Positions 26,244-31,308 of a DNA stretch of 44,073 nt are shown here, in pieces. The position numbers and the translations under genes are program-made. The stretch is from Acidithiobacillus marinus (GTDB taxonomy: Bacteria; Pseudomonadota; Gammaproteobacteria; Acidithiobacillales; Acidithiobacillaceae), in assembly GCF_002847505.1 (NCBI RefSeq), contig NZ_MXAV01000025.1, forward strand, positions 1 through 44,073, written 5' to 3'. Each line of letters starts with the position of its first letter. The stretch's first letter is position 1. The notes beneath the pieces are model-generated. The model searched no databases. It had not been told where the DNA came from and saw nothing but the letters and a program-made list of their open reading frames with translations.

Positions 26244-26266
26244 CATTTACTTTGTCTGGGAGGACC

Positions 26267-27247
26267 ATGGACGCCACGGACCAGAAGCGCCTGTTGCGTG
26301 AAATGCTTTTTGCCCGCCGCTTTGAAGAACGCTGTGCGGAGGCCTATCACGAACGCCAGATCGGCGGTTTTTTGCACCTTTATCCGGGTCAAGAGGCCTG
26401 TGCCATTGGCGTTCTGGAAAAAGCCCAGACGGGTTCTGACTATGTGGTGACCGGTTATCGGGATCACATCCACGCCCTGAAATCCGGCATGGATCCCAAG
26501 GCGCTGATGGCAGAGCTGTTCGGAAAAGAAGCGGGTTGCTCCAAGGGGCGTGGTGGTTCCATGCACCTGTTTGATCCCGATGTGCATTTCATGGGGGGCT
26601 ATGCTCTGGTGGGCGGGCCCTTTCCCCTGGCTGCGGGTTTTGCCAAGGTCATTCAGTTGCGTGGCGGTCAGGAAATTTCTATTTGCTTCCTGGGGGATGG
26701 TGCCAACAATCAGGGTACCTTTCATGAAACCATGAACATGGCGAGTCTCTGGAAGCTGCCCGTCCTCTTCATTTGTGAAAATAACCTCTACGGCATTGGT
26801 ACAGCCATCGAGCGCGCTACAGTAGAAATCAACCAGTACAAGCGGGTGGCGCCCTATGGTATCGAGGCCGCGCAATGTGACGGACAGGACATCGACATCG
26901 TCATGTCCCACGCCGAAAAAGCCGTCAATTATGTGCGCGAACAGCGCAAACCCTATTTTCTGGAGCTCATGACCTACCGTTTGCGCGGACATTCCATGTC
27001 GGACTCCGGTGCCTATCGCAGCAAGGAAGAAGTGGAAGAATGGGCGCAACGTGATCCTATCGGCATATACAAGCGCCGTCTGGTAGAAGCCGGAGTGGTG
27101 ACGGAAGAAGAGTTCCATGCCATGGACAAGGCCATCCAGGATGAAATCGAGAACGAGGTGGTACGTTACGCCATGGAGTGTCCGGAACCCCGCGTTGAAG
27201 ATGTAGCGCGTTATGTGTATACCGAAGGAGGTAATCACCATGGCTGA
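26267..27247 (+). CDS. pdhA: Pyruvate dehydrogenase E1 component, alpha subunit
   Basis: 326 residues of the heterotetrameric (alpha2beta2) E1 type, which decarboxylates pyruvate with thiamine diphosphate. The ThDP motif GDGANNQGTFHETMN is complete (GDG...NN type), with the upstream GGSMHLF and the later phosphorylation-loop region RLRGHSMSD. GGGAGG at 26258-26263 is only three bases from the ATG 26267, a rather tight spacing; a TTG at 26252 is the alternative. The 3' end overlaps pdhB by eight bases. A branched-chain 2-oxoacid substrate cannot be fully excluded, but context with the E2-E3 gene fits pyruvate. Confidence 0.9.
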   Translation: MDATDQKRLLREMLFARRFEERCAEAYHERQIGGFLHLYPGQEACAIGVLEKAQTGSDYVVTGYRDHIHALKSGMDPKALMAELFGKEAGCSKGRGGSMHLFDPDVHFMGGYALVGGPFPLAAGFAKVIQLRGGQEISICFLGDGANNQGTFHETMNMASLWKLPVLFICENNLYGIGTAIERATVEINQYKRVAPYGIEAAQCDGQDIDIVMSHAEKAVNYVREQRKPYFLELMTYRLRGHSMSDSGAYRSKEEVEEWAQRDPIGIYKRRLVEAGVVTEEEFHAMDKAIQDEIENEVVRYAMECPEPRVEDVARYVYTEGGNHHG

Positions 27248-28220
27248 ATTGATGTATTGGCAGGGAATTCTGCGTGCCCACGATGAAGAAATGGCGCGTG
27301 ACCCGCTGGTATTCGCCATGGGTGAGGATATTGGTGTCGCTGGTGGTACCTACAAGGCGACTTCCGGACTTTTTGCCAAATATGGTGAACAACGGGTGAT
27401 TGATACTCCTATTTCCGAAAACAGCTACACCGGCATTGGCGTTGGTGCGGCCATGCTCGGCGCGCGCCCCATTGTCGAAATCATGAGTGTCAATTTTGCC
27501 TGGCTGGCCATGGATCAGCTCATGAATAATGCTGCCAAAATTCATTACATGTCCGGTGGCCGGATTCGCTGTCCTTTCGTCATGCGGGTTCCTGGTGGAA
27601 CGGCGCATCAGTTGGGCGCCCAGCACTCTGCGCGCATGGAAAAAGTGTTCATGGGGATTTCCGGTTTGCGGGTGGTGACTCCGGCAACGCCTCGGGATGC
27701 CTACGGCTTGCTGAAAAGTGCTGTCCGTTCGGACGATCCGGTGGTGATCATCGAACATGAAAGCATGTACAACCTCAAGGGCGAAGTCCCGGATGAAGAG
27801 TTTTTCACGCCATTGGAAGGCGTCGAAATCATGCGTCCGGGTAAGGACATCAGTATTTTTGCCTACAATATCAGTGTTCACTGGGCGCTGGATGCGGCGC
27901 AAAAGCTCGCCAGCGAATATGGTATTGATGCCGAAGTCATTGATTTGCGTGCCCTGAAACCGCTGGATCGGGCCGGCATTGCCGCCAGTGTGCGCAAAAC
28001 CCATCGCGCCCTCATTGTCGAAGAGGACGAGGCTCCGGTCGGTGTCGGTTCAGAAGTCATCGCCATTATCAATGAAGAATGCTTTTTTGATCTGGATGCC
28101 GCCCCAGTGCGGGTGCATGCGCTGGATGTTCCCATTCCGTACAATCACCGCCTGGAAAAAGCGGCCATTCCCAATGCCGGGGATGTAGTTGCTGCCGTCA
28201 AGAAGATGTTCGGTCGTTAA
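27240..28220 (+). CDS. pdhB: Pyruvate dehydrogenase E1 component, beta subunit
   Basis: 326 residues; the partner of the alpha subunit, typical in VFAMGEDIGVAGGTYKAT, RVIDTPISENSYTGIGVGAA, NNAAKIHYMSGG, MRVPGG and the C-terminal domain DAEVIDLRALKPLD. GGAGGT at 27225-27230 is well placed for the ATG at 27240 inside the end of pdhA. A 94-base gap follows before the E2-E3 gene, holding a CCCGTC/GACGGG hairpin (28251-28268) without a T run. Confidence 0.93.
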   Translation: MAELMYWQGILRAHDEEMARDPLVFAMGEDIGVAGGTYKATSGLFAKYGEQRVIDTPISENSYTGIGVGAAMLGARPIVEIMSVNFAWLAMDQLMNNAAKIHYMSGGRIRCPFVMRVPGGTAHQLGAQHSARMEKVFMGISGLRVVTPATPRDAYGLLKSAVRSDDPVVIIEHESMYNLKGEVPDEEFFTPLEGVEIMRPGKDISIFAYNISVHWALDAAQKLASEYGIDAEVIDLRALKPLDRAGIAASVRKTHRALIVEEDEAPVGVGSEVIAIINEECFFDLDAAPVRVHALDVPIPYNHRLEKAAIPNAGDVVAAVKKMFGR

Positions 28221-28314: not shown

Positions 28315-31308
28315 ATGGCTGAACCTTACGTCATCAAGATGCCACAACTGACCGATACCATGACGGAAGGCGTCGTCGTTTCCTGGGAAAAACCCATTGG
28401 GGCCCGGGTGGAGCGCGGCGATGTGGTGGCGACCATTGAAACCGACAAGGCGATCATGGATGTGGAAGTGTTCCGCTCCGGTTATCTGGCCGGACCCTTG
28501 GCAGCGGTGGACAGTGTCATGCCGGTGGGGGCAGCCATGGCTTATCTCACCGAAACACCTGAAGAAGCACAGTCCCTGGCAGCGGGCGGGGGGGCGGTAG
28601 AGAATGTTTCTGCCGAAGCTGCTCCTGCTGCTCCAGCCTCTGAAATGCCGGAACCCCTTTCCGGGCATGCCATCAAAATGCCTCAGCTTTCCGATACCAT
28701 GAGCGAAGGCGTGCTGGTTTCCTGGGAAAAGTCTCTGGGCGATAAAATCCAGCGCGGGGACGTGGTGGCGACCATTGAAACCGACAAGGCCATCATGGAT
28801 GTGGAAGTATTTCGTGAAGGCTATCTGTCCGGTCCCCGCGTCGCGGTGGATGCGGTGGTTCCCGTGGGTGACGCCATTGCCTGGTTGGTGGAAACGGCCG
28901 AACAGGTGCGGGATACCAGTAGTGCGGTGGCATCCACCCAGCCTGCAGCACCCGTTGTCAGTGTGGACAAGGCAGCGCCTGCCGTAACCAGCAGGCCTCA
29001 GCCATCCGTCGCGGAAGTGGCCATACAGCGCGTTCCCGGGGCGCAACCCGCAGCCCGCCCCCGGCAGGGAGCAGCCAGTCCTTTTGCCCGCCAGCTGGCG
29101 GGACAGCAGGGCGTGGATCTGAATCTGCTGCAAGGTAGCGGGCCGGCAGGGGTGATTGTCGGCGCCGATGTGCTGGCCGCTGCCAGTCGCGCCGCCCCGG
29201 CCATGCCCGGTGCCCGCGTGCCGGAGCCTGCCGTACCTGGGGAAGGGCGGGCGATGAGTGCCATCGAAAAGGCCATCAGTCAGGCGATGGTGGCGTCCCT
29301 CAGTATTCCGGTGTTTCATGTCACCGTCAAAGCCAAGCCGGAAGCGCTGATGCGTGCCGCCAAGGCCCACAAGGTGTCGCTGACCGTGGCCATTGCCAAG
29401 GCGGCGTCTCAGGCGTTGGCCAGGCATCCCCTGGTCAATGCCGCCTATCAGCCGACCGACAAAATTGTGGAACGCGCCCAGCATGATATTGGCATTGCCG
29501 CGACCACCGAAGATGGCGGGCTGGTGGTGCCGGTGCTGCGCTCGGTGGAGGGCAAGGCGCTGGAGCAGTTGCAGCAGGAATGGACGCCCCTGGTGGAAAA
29601 AGCCCGTAAACGTCGGCTCAGTCCTCCCGAATACACCCATCCTACCTTTACCATCTCCAACATGGGGATGTATGGCGTTACCCAGTTTGATGCCATCGTC
29701 ACTCCGGGTACGGCGGCCATTATTGCCATTGCCGGAAATAGCCCGGAGGGCATGCCCATTACCATTACCGCCGATCATCGGGTGGTGAACGGGGCGGAAG
29801 CAGCGCTATTTCTCAAGGATCTCAAAAAAGCCATTGAACACCCGGAAAGCTGGCTGGAAACTGGTGCGACCCCGATTCCCGAGGGCGACTATGATGTGCA
29901 GGTGCTGGTCATCGGAGCTGGTCCGGGGGGCGAGGATTGCGCCCGCGAACTGGTTGAAAACGGCGTCAAGGTAGCCATGGTCAATAATGCGCCTTACCCC
30001 GGGGGTGAATGCCTGTGGCGCGGTTGCATCCCCTCCAAGGCCTGGCGGGCTGCCGCCGACCGCATCCGGGATCGGGAACATGATGCGGCCATGGGCTTGC
30101 AGATGGGCACTCCAAAGCTGGACTGGGCACAGTTGGAAAAACACCGTCGCGGCATTTTGCAGGCGCGGGGCGAAATGGCCCTGAAAACCGATCAGGGTAT
30201 GAAAATTCAGGTGCTGGAAGGCGCTGCCCGCTTTACCGGTGAGCACAGCGTTGAAATTACGGGTAAGGATGCCCGGAGTCTGAGTTTCGGGGCCTGCGTC
30301 ATCGCCACCGGGGCTCCCGCCTTTGTGCCTCCCATTCCGGGGGTGCAGGAAGCGTTAAAGAGTGCTGCGGCGGTCACCTCAGATACGGTCTGGGATCTGG
30401 CCCAGCCGCCCAAGCGGCTGTGCGTGATCGGTGCGGGTGCCATCGGTATGGAAATGGCCCAGATGTTCCACGATTTTGGTGCCGAGGTGCTGGTGCTGGA
30501 AGCACTGCCGCGCCCGGTGGCCGAAATGGAAAAAGAAGTTTCCGAGCAACTGATGAAGGCTCTGGCCCATAACAGCCCGCGTCTGCAGGTACTGACCAGC
30601 GTCAAGGTGCAGGAAGTATCCGGCAAGCCTGGTGCTCTGGATATTCACTACCAGGTGGGCGATACCGACACCCATCATGTCTGTGACCTGCTCCTGGTGG
30701 CTACCGGCAAGCGTCCGGATACCAGCGCCCTGAACCTGACCGCTGCGGGGGTGACTCTGGCGGAGCGCGGCGCCATTGCCGCGAGTGCCACAGGGCAGAC
30801 CAGTGTTCCACATATTTATGCGGTGGGGGATGTGGTGGGAGGGTACATGCTCGCACACACGGCGGGCCAGCAGGGGCGGGTGGCAGCGGCCAATCTGCTC
30901 GGCCATGGGGCTCGTTATGATGCGGCCAAAGATAGCGGCGTAACTTTCACCCGACCCCAGTGTGCCTTTGTCGGGCTTTCTCTGGAACAGGCCAAGGCCG
31001 CCGGAATGGATGTGGCCGAAGTCAAGGTGCCCATGAGTATTGATGCCAAGGCCATGATGACCGGTGAAACCGATGGCCTGATCAAAATGATTGCCGACAA
31101 GGTCAGCCACCGGATTGTGGGGGTGCATTTCCTGGCAGATCATGCTGATCTGCTGGTGGGTGAGGCCGTCATGATGGTCAGCGCGGGCTTGACCCTGGAA
31201 CAGGTGGGCGAAGCCATTCATCCCCATCCGACCCAGACGGAGCTATTTGGCGAAATGGCCAGACGGCTGCTTTCGCGCTTGCGGCGTTCAGCCCGGGCGG
31301 CGGGGTGA
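28315..31308 (+). CDS. Fused dihydrolipoamide acetyltransferase (E2) - dihydrolipoamide dehydrogenase (E3)
   Basis: One 997-residue chain. Two lipoyl domains (1-80 and 117-195; lipoyl-lysines Lys45 and Lys158, each in ETDKAIMDVEV), an Ala/Pro linker, a peripheral-subunit-binding domain (about 253-290), the acetyltransferase core (about 310-515) and a full flavoprotein E3 (about 525-997). In E2 the catalytic motif HxxxDG reads DHRVVNG (His488, Asn492). E3 has FAD motif VIGAGPGGE, redox cysteines Cys566 and Cys571 (GGECLWRGCIPSK), NAD motif VIGAGAIGMEMA, YAVGDV and the C-terminal HPHPTQTE pair. With pdhAB it would make a complete complex. The retained E3-binding domain is surprising if E3 is already covalently attached. 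Confidence 0.92.
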   Translation: MAEPYVIKMPQLTDTMTEGVVVSWEKPIGARVERGDVVATIETDKAIMDVEVFRSGYLAGPLAAVDSVMPVGAAMAYLTETPEEAQSLAAGGGAVENVSAEAAPAAPASEMPEPLSGHAIKMPQLSDTMSEGVLVSWEKSLGDKIQRGDVVATIETDKAIMDVEVFREGYLSGPRVAVDAVVPVGDAIAWLVETAEQVRDTSSAVASTQPAAPVVSVDKAAPAVTSRPQPSVAEVAIQRVPGAQPAARPRQGAASPFARQLAGQQGVDLNLLQGSGPAGVIVGADVLAAASRAAPAMPGARVPEPAVPGEGRAMSAIEKAISQAMVASLSIPVFHVTVKAKPEALMRAAKAHKVSLTVAIAKAASQALARHPLVNAAYQPTDKIVERAQHDIGIAATTEDGGLVVPVLRSVEGKALEQLQQEWTPLVEKARKRRLSPPEYTHPTFTISNMGMYGVTQFDAIVTPGTAAIIAIAGNSPEGMPITITADHRVVNGAEAALFLKDLKKAIEHPESWLETGATPIPEGDYDVQVLVIGAGPGGEDCARELVENGVKVAMVNNAPYPGGECLWRGCIPSKAWRAAADRIRDREHDAAMGLQMGTPKLDWAQLEKHRRGILQARGEMALKTDQGMKIQVLEGAARFTGEHSVEITGKDARSLSFGACVIATGAPAFVPPIPGVQEALKSAAAVTSDTVWDLAQPPKRLCVIGAGAIGMEMAQMFHDFGAEVLVLEALPRPVAEMEKEVSEQLMKALAHNSPRLQVLTSVKVQEVSGKPGALDIHYQVGDTDTHHVCDLLLVATGKRPDTSALNLTAAGVTLAERGAIAASATGQTSVPHIYAVGDVVGGYMLAHTAGQQGRVAAANLLGHGARYDAAKDSGVTFTRPQCAFVGLSLEQAKAAGMDVAEVKVPMSIDAKAMMTGETDGLIKMIADKVSHRIVGVHFLADHADLLVGEAVMMVSAGLTLEQVGEAIHPHPTQTELFGEMARRLLSRLRRSARAAG

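Follow-up and report, generated by a model that had tools for sequence, protein, structure and literature searches.

The 44,073-nucleotide contig NZ_MXAV01000025.1 of Acidithiobacillus marinus, an acid-loving sulfur bacterium, encodes the acetyltransferase (E2) and the dihydrolipoyl dehydrogenase (E3) of a pyruvate dehydrogenase (PDH) complex in a single polypeptide chain. We refer to this whole stretch as the window. Comparison of many genomes confirms, at the sequence level, that this covalently linked E2-E3 of PDH is real and widely distributed. We propose, with a probability of about 0.75, that it gives rise to a PDH complex in which E3 is covalently attached to the end of E2, E1 sits on the peripheral subunit-binding domain (PSBD), and E3 is shared with other lipoate systems. 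The fusion, its conservation, the catalytic residues, the gene order and the genome content are read from sequence.

The fused frame runs from ATG to stop over 997 amino acids with zero internal stops. An earlier note on this DNA had recognized in it two lipoyl domains, an E3-binding domain, the acetyltransferase core and a lipoamide dehydrogenase, and the Pfam profiles agree: two Biotin_lipoyl matches, E3_binding (residues 254-287) and 2-oxoacid_dh (313-514) are followed by Pyr_redox_2 (529-854) and Pyr_redox_dim (875-981) in the E3 part, all above their cut-offs. The GC content at third codon positions is uniform along the frame, with 0.66-0.69 in the domains and 0.61 in the 31-codon junction. 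Directly upstream, an E1 of the alpha2beta2 type is encoded (pdhA and pdhB, according to Pfam and curated models). The individual features are:

28315..31308, + strand: fused E2-E3, 997 aa (open frame; Pfam architecture; 86 distinct full-length sequences)
28321..28548, + strand: lipoyl domain 1, residues 3-78, lipoyl Lys45 (PF00364, two stretches in the chain; K45 in 86/86)
28663..28899, + strand: lipoyl domain 2, residues 117-195, lipoyl Lys158 (PF00364 at 119-189; K158 in 86/86)
29074..29175, + strand: PSBD, residues 254-287 (PF02817, 1.4e-10; R259 in 86/86)
29233..29859, + strand: acetyltransferase core, residues 307-515, with S448, H488 and N492 (PF00198; model against E2 cores, Z<=26.8)
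29860..29892, + strand: linker between E2 core and E3, residues 516-526 (residue 515 aligned with the canonical E2 chain end)
29893..31305, + strand: E3, dihydrolipoyl dehydrogenase domain, residues 527-997, with C566/C571, E729 and H971/E976 (PF07992 and PF02852; match to Lpd structures)
31243..31287, + strand: basic C-terminal helix of the fused E3, residues 977-991 (helix in the model; conserved Arg/Leu)
26252..27247, + strand: pdhA, E1 alpha subunit (listed with a TTG start; PF00676, 3.7e-78; TIGR03182 above cut-off; scanned as 26249-27247)
27213..28220, + strand: pdhB, E1 beta subunit (PF02779 and PF02780; NF006667 above cut-off)

The distribution of the fusion was followed in samples from the order (31 genomes) and the class (370 genomes; match threshold E<=1e-150) and by a scan with a single genome for each species, which yielded 325 relatives; the best 80 of these were kept. 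Among 109 loci examined, 107 have a fusion match. A single frame from residues 1-5 to at least 980 is present in 96 loci and the window; removal of identical copies left 86 distinct sequences of these 97, including that of the window, and their best segments share 54-96% identity with the window. The single-chain PDH E2-E3 of the earlier note, which had proposed looking for the same fusion in other Acidithiobacillia, thus recurs in 28 of the 31 order genomes, complete and uninterrupted in 21 of them and partial or split in 7, and is found far outside the order. In the remaining three genomes (G011, G023 and G027, from the same genus or family; 81, 91 and 69% complete) only paralogues were detected. 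A fusion universal in the order is therefore not supported, one of the genomes without a match being 91% complete; either real loss or missing sequence may lie behind the three cases. At the class level, 80 of the 370 genomes match; 67 of them do so in one continuous piece that starts at or before residue 118 and ends at or after residue 937, as read from the match rows, and the other 13 matches are shorter or split, several at contig ends. In the phylum sample, for which the number of out-of-class genomes is not shown, 3 of 397 genomes matched, all from the own or the same class, and we do not take this as absence elsewhere. The fusion is also present in two named metagenome-assembled genomes (MAGs), one assigned to Spirochaetia (L068) and one to Desulfobacteraceae (L071), assignments that rest on binning as deposited. 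Plasmid records gave 342 matches, all with less than 60% identity; among 15 of them, the annotated ones name E2 and/or E3, mostly as separate adjoining features.

Frame breaks are rare exceptions that could hint at two neighbouring genes read as one through a sequencing or assembly error. One of the 67 long matches in the class sample (G095) has an in-frame TAA, and an Acidithiobacillus MAG of the family, to which both L035 and L107 seem to belong, has a break in the frame near residue 714, whether through error or in reality. On the other hand, 86 distinct full-length fusions come from many assemblies, and the match is one long piece in 67 of the 80 matching class genomes. Since the fusion is conserved in one frame across independent genomes, a false join near position 29880, where by the earlier note a stop or frameshift separating the genes would have counted against the fusion, is very unlikely, and the chance that the fusion is an artefact of this kind is practically negligible.

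Both pdhA and pdhB were found upstream in 73 of 80 named fusion loci and in 66 of the 67 whose N-terminus is complete and whose upstream DNA exceeds 2.5 kb. In several genomes (G322, G101, G339, G379, G265, G133 and others) the fusion match begins only at about residue 112-118 in frames of ~900 residues, which suggests that these fusions have one lipoyl domain rather than two.

All ten residues expected to matter for catalysis (K45, K158, S448, H488, N492, C566, C571, E729, H971 and E976) are invariant in 86/86 fusions, E729 being in our reading a marker for NAD+. Each lipoyl domain has the DKA motif (D44 K45 A46 and D157 K158 A159) in all 86, and H488 and N492 of the E2 motif DHRxx(D/N)G are likewise kept in all of them; for comparison, the title of the E2 structure 1dpb names Ser558, His610 and Asn614 as catalytic. 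The FAD/NAD fold, the redox Cys pair and the His-Glu dyad of an E3 are all found in the fused chain, and the model of the E3 domain matches structures of dihydrolipoyl dehydrogenase (Lpd) with TM-scores of 0.85-0.90, normalised by target. In a tree of 19 fused E3 and 30 standalone Lpd sequences, for which the tool warned of long branches, the fused E3s group together in a single clade, separate from the standalone Lpd, with a support of 100/100. The fused E3 ends in a basic helix, ARRLxSRLRR, in which R983, R984, L985, R988 and R991 are kept in 86/86 fusions. This helix is unlike the tails of the 18 standalone Lpd compared and may be a docking element.

Because E2 and E3 are covalently linked, their ratio should be fixed at 1:1, as the earlier note had argued, and no conserved internal start was seen in the fusions. 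It might be objected that the frame is fused and free E3 is nevertheless made as well, either through cleavage of the linker or by translation from an internal start, for which GTG codons 528 and 530 would be available. The window does have GAGGG ten bases 5' of GTG codon 528, and a product starting there would resemble a normal E3 N-terminus. However, only 4 of 86 sequences combine a start codon within residues 517-532 with a Shine-Dalgarno-like core, and 39 control stretches taken from these genes gave 0-41 with a median of 4. The internal start is thus not enriched over the controls and was rejected, and we regard additional free E3 as quite improbable. This controlled count supersedes a looser one over a longer stretch (in-frame ATG in 43 of 85 loci; any start with a Shine-Dalgarno-like core in 7 of 85).

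Whether the tethered E3 is the only one in the cell was addressed by profile searches with the E3 model TIGR01350 (curated cut-off 408.8 bits), to which we added a stricter criterion of >450 bits for a "canonical" Lpd. No protein of the host genome exceeds the cut-off, so that the search for another lpd, a check named in the earlier note, leaves the fused E3 as the best match with 365.9 bits. It is followed by a glutathione reductase (326.3 bits, above the cut-off of its own family), a 477-aa Lpd-like protein (323.7 bits) whose Cys motif is followed by PKK, and a CoA-disulfide-reductase-like protein (141.3 bits). A sixth, weak match on contig 5 (E 5.8e-5) lies in a 465-aa frame that has no Lpd match at 1e-20. 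The census of standalone Lpd covered 58 of the 80 fused genomes, 30 with and 28 without 2-oxoglutarate dehydrogenase. A canonical standalone Lpd is present in 29/30 of the former and 1/28 of the latter, or in 29/30 and 3/28 by the curated cut-off, and several of these Lpd genes are only a few kilobases away from the gene for 2-oxoglutarate dehydrogenase. In the host genome neither of the two was found. Glycine decarboxylase is encoded in all 29 fused genomes without 2-oxoglutarate dehydrogenase that were examined (of 40). The host has it too, and there the gene for the H-protein adjoins it. By these profile searches, most fused genomes that lack 2-oxoglutarate dehydrogenase, including the host, have no clear dihydrolipoyl dehydrogenase other than the fused E3. 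It therefore probably also serves glycine cleavage and, in the host, a second E1-E2 complex.

The genes for this second complex lie on the minus strand of host contig 38 (L007, 8763-12045) and encode both E1 subunits, alpha and beta, together with an unfused E2 that has a single lipoyl domain; inspection of the operon genes revealed no clear E3. Its neighbours, named by eye, are acetate kinase-, phosphotransacetylase- and phosphofructokinase-like genes, pyruvate kinase and enolase. The motif of the second E2 is DHRVIFG, with F at the catalytic D/N position, as in the other second E2s compared. A second E1-E2 set occurs in 17/17 further regions of the family, with E1 alpha missing in one short contig. 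Another lipoate system may be encoded on host contig 28 (L206, 3131-13995), where two CCG-domain and two Fer4 proteins, an FAD protein and DsrE are found together with two H-protein-like lipoate carriers, a lipoate-protein ligase and a radical SAM protein. From its gene content this is a probable Hdr-like sulfur oxidation cluster. According to an excerpt of PMC6067878, no E3 gene can be recognized in bacterial clusters of the Hdr-like kind, and sharing with 2-oxoacid dehydrogenases is supposed.

The genomes with the fusion also differ from the rest of the class sample in metabolic genes. The large-chain family of RuBisCO, in which RuBisCO-like proteins may be included, has a member in 77/80 fused versus 109/290 other genomes, and the 2-oxoglutarate dehydrogenase E1 in 40/80 versus 234/290. 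The absence of the latter is thus enriched among fused genomes (40/80 versus 56/290); the genomes in both contrasts are kin, so that Fisher p-values overstate the association. As 40 of the 80 fused genomes possess the enzyme, its absence was discarded as the sole cause of the fusion. From these counts, absence of 2-oxoglutarate dehydrogenase apparently favours the fusion but is not required.

The earlier note had also pointed to the E3-binding domain as a domain retained although E3 is no longer separate. The domain is indeed present, and the paradox is probably only apparent, since domains of this kind also bind E1 of the alpha2beta2 type, the type that is encoded next door. In excerpts of the respective papers, the PSBD is reported to bind alpha2beta2 E1 (PMC2663715), and binding of E1 and E3 to it is described as mutually exclusive in bacteria (PMC2880790). 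For these two reasons a PSBD that is now used for E1 is the simplest reading, and from the sequences docking of the alpha2beta2 E1 is its most likely role. The PSBD is well conserved, with a mean majority identity of 0.70 compared with 0.20-0.32 in the three linkers before the E2 core and 0.61 in the E2-E3 linker, and is therefore likely functional and not a relic.

The domain and its central Arg259, kept in 86/86 fusions, would also suit a PSBD that still binds E3 of its own or a neighbouring chain, as in canonical complexes, with the fusion merely an extra tether. We consider this unlikely, because such docking would be redundant with the tether and E1 still requires the site, and because basic residues have been lost. 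In a comparison set of 29 unfused E2s (30 loci were taken, L161 having no usable match), K/R is found at position 263 in 14, R at position 280 in 28 and K/R at position 283 in 26, versus K/R in 0/86 fusions at each of the three positions. The mean net charge of the PSBD is +1.9 (-1 to 5) in unfused and 0.0 (-4 to 4) in fused E2s. Three unfused E2s that have an E1 beta gene in the same short locus retain R at 280.

Several observations weigh against the proposed E1-binding PSBD and shared, tethered E3. Regarding the PSBD, R at 280 is not universal, as the equivalent residue is V in the solved PSBD of 1w4i and K in that of 6zlm. In an alignment and tree of 15 fused E2s, six second E2s and the 29 unfused E2s, the second E2s, although unfused, are without K/R at 280 and 283, and only 2/6 have R at 263; they form a clade that is sister to the fused E2s and not nested within them. 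Since the unfused sister E2s share the loss, it may predate the fusion or have another cause, and erosion of the PSBD caused by the fusion is weakened as an explanation by all six second E2s compared. With respect to E3, the host genome is assembled in 65 contigs, and the 477-aa Lpd-like flavoprotein could, from its sequence, act as an E3. Moreover, the fused E3 scores 362.8 or, in the genome search, 365.9 bits against the TIGR01350 cut-off of 408.8 and shares only 27-33% identity with 30 standalone Lpd, for which reason a substrate with a non-lipoyl disulfide is conceivable. By the strict model the E3 part is, in sequence terms, Lpd-like, yet Lpd is its top-scoring curated model. The missed cut-off, MerA as the next model with 308.8 bits and the mercuric reductases within the top 50 structures would all fit another flavoprotein disulfide reductase joined to E2 by chance. 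However, the majority of these top 50 structures are Lpd, as is the best model, and the Cys pair with the following Ser-Lys as well as His971-Pro-Thr and Glu976 are invariant, which makes a PDH dihydrolipoyl dehydrogenase much the better assignment and the chance-joined reductase highly improbable.

The joint between the two enzymes lies at the C-terminal end of the E2 core. The model of this core (pLDDT 84.8, pTM 0.82) matches E2 cores with Z<=26.8, and VIA alignments over about residues 25-211 gave 1.6-2.6 A with E2 cores and 2.9-3.5 A with OdhA/KGD; Foldseek rmsd values for the E2 model were mostly ~10 A. Only monomers were modelled, and the model of the full-length chain is poor (pTM 0.54) and uninformative on domain packing. 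On the side of the model the alignments often stop at residue 211, corresponding to residue 515 of the protein, and in several canonical cores they stop at the chain end (for example 1eaa 637, 8piu 647 and 1b5s 425, which we take to be last residues from the ranges and chain lengths). An excerpt of PMC8421416 describes the C-terminal E2 helix as a knob through which trimers connect at the two-fold axis. E3 would thus start where two E2 chains meet in the normal core. W513, near the canonical hydrophobic C-terminus, is invariant in 86/86, so that the knob may persist with the chain continuing beyond it, and a plain loss of the C-terminal knob is unsupported. The tether from W513 to V530 has a median of 16 residues (range 16-43) in the 86 fusions. 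Two segments of the 29 unfused E2s are missing from the 15 fused and six second E2s aligned. The first, following residue 349, comprises 5-10 residues, in most cases 9-10; the second, following residue 479, comprises 12-14 residues in the fused E2s and one residue less in the second E2s. With E3 attached at the helix that joins trimers, the changed 24- or 60-mer architecture suggested in the earlier note is plausible.

In terms of function, the fused chain should, by its domain content, work like a PDH complex. The alpha2beta2 E1 from the two upstream genes would dock on the PSBD, decarboxylate pyruvate and acetylate both lipoyl domains. These would visit the active sites of the E2 trimer, where the acetyl group is passed to CoA, and then reach the tethered E3 domains, by which the lipoyl groups would be re-oxidised with NAD+. 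The tethered E3 domains would have to pair as dimers. Since E3 is tethered, E1 would be freed from competing with it for the PSBD. Activity, use of NAD+, PSBD-E1 binding, dimer pairing and service to other systems are what we infer. As the chain joins a trimeric to a dimeric domain at the trimer-trimer knob, a role of E3 as scaffold is conceivable. We tentatively raise the doubtful possibility that E3 dimers build or brace the edges of the particle, which could be a cage or, like OdhA, a D3 hexamer, so that E3 would no longer be a peripheral enzyme and only E1 would use the PSBD, and that in sulfur oxidisers the scaffold-bound E3 also re-oxidises the lipoate of glycine cleavage and of the sulfur-oxidation proteins LbpA, passing the electrons to NAD+.

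E3 is the textbook example of a shared, exchangeable subunit of lipoate-dependent complexes; a widespread, mostly carbon-fixing set of bacteria carries a PDH with a covalent E3 instead. The fusion can be regarded as a natural experiment on the purpose of the PSBD, on whether competition between E1 and E3 matters, and on the building of E2 cages. It also offers a testable answer to which E3 serves bacterial lipoate-dependent sulfur oxidation, a point left as supposition in the excerpt of PMC6067878. Our literature search, mostly outside subscription journals, gave no description of an E2-E3 fusion among the titles and abstract starts listed. We do not claim priority, because the pdh genes of Thiobacillus ferrooxidans were reportedly cloned in the 1990s and the architecture is presumably listed in domain databases.

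Other natural fusions share parts of this design. The Neisseria P64K-type E3, which was found among the matches, is joined to a lipoyl-type domain as here, presumably the N-terminal lipoyl domain of that protein. Neither this E3 nor haloarchaeal LpdA is known to have an acetyltransferase core or a PSBD. In haloarchaeal LpdA, too, E3 is joined to a lipoyl-type domain, termed 'biotin-dependent' in an excerpt of PMC11237513. Actinobacterial OdhA/KGD, as excerpted from PMC10415282, likewise combines a trimer-forming acyltransferase and a dimer-forming enzyme in one chain and is a homohexamer. There, however, E2 is joined to the E1 of 2-oxoglutarate dehydrogenase and the lipoyl group is supplied in trans, whereas here a PDH E2 with two lipoyl domains of its own is joined to E3; the 18 Pfam matches of the fused chain include no E1 domain. 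In actinobacterial E2p, according to the same excerpt, a C-terminal three-residue insertion reduces the assembly to a trimer, and in the fused chain a whole E3 is placed at the same trimer contact region. With the canonical alpha2beta2-E1 PDH of the Geobacillus stearothermophilus type (excerpt of PMC2663715), the fused complex shares the E1 genes and an E2 with lipoyl domain(s), PSBD and core, and the same chemistry is expected. It is not canonical, as its E3 is not a separate protein, and it further differs in an E2 core without two segments and in a less basic PSBD.

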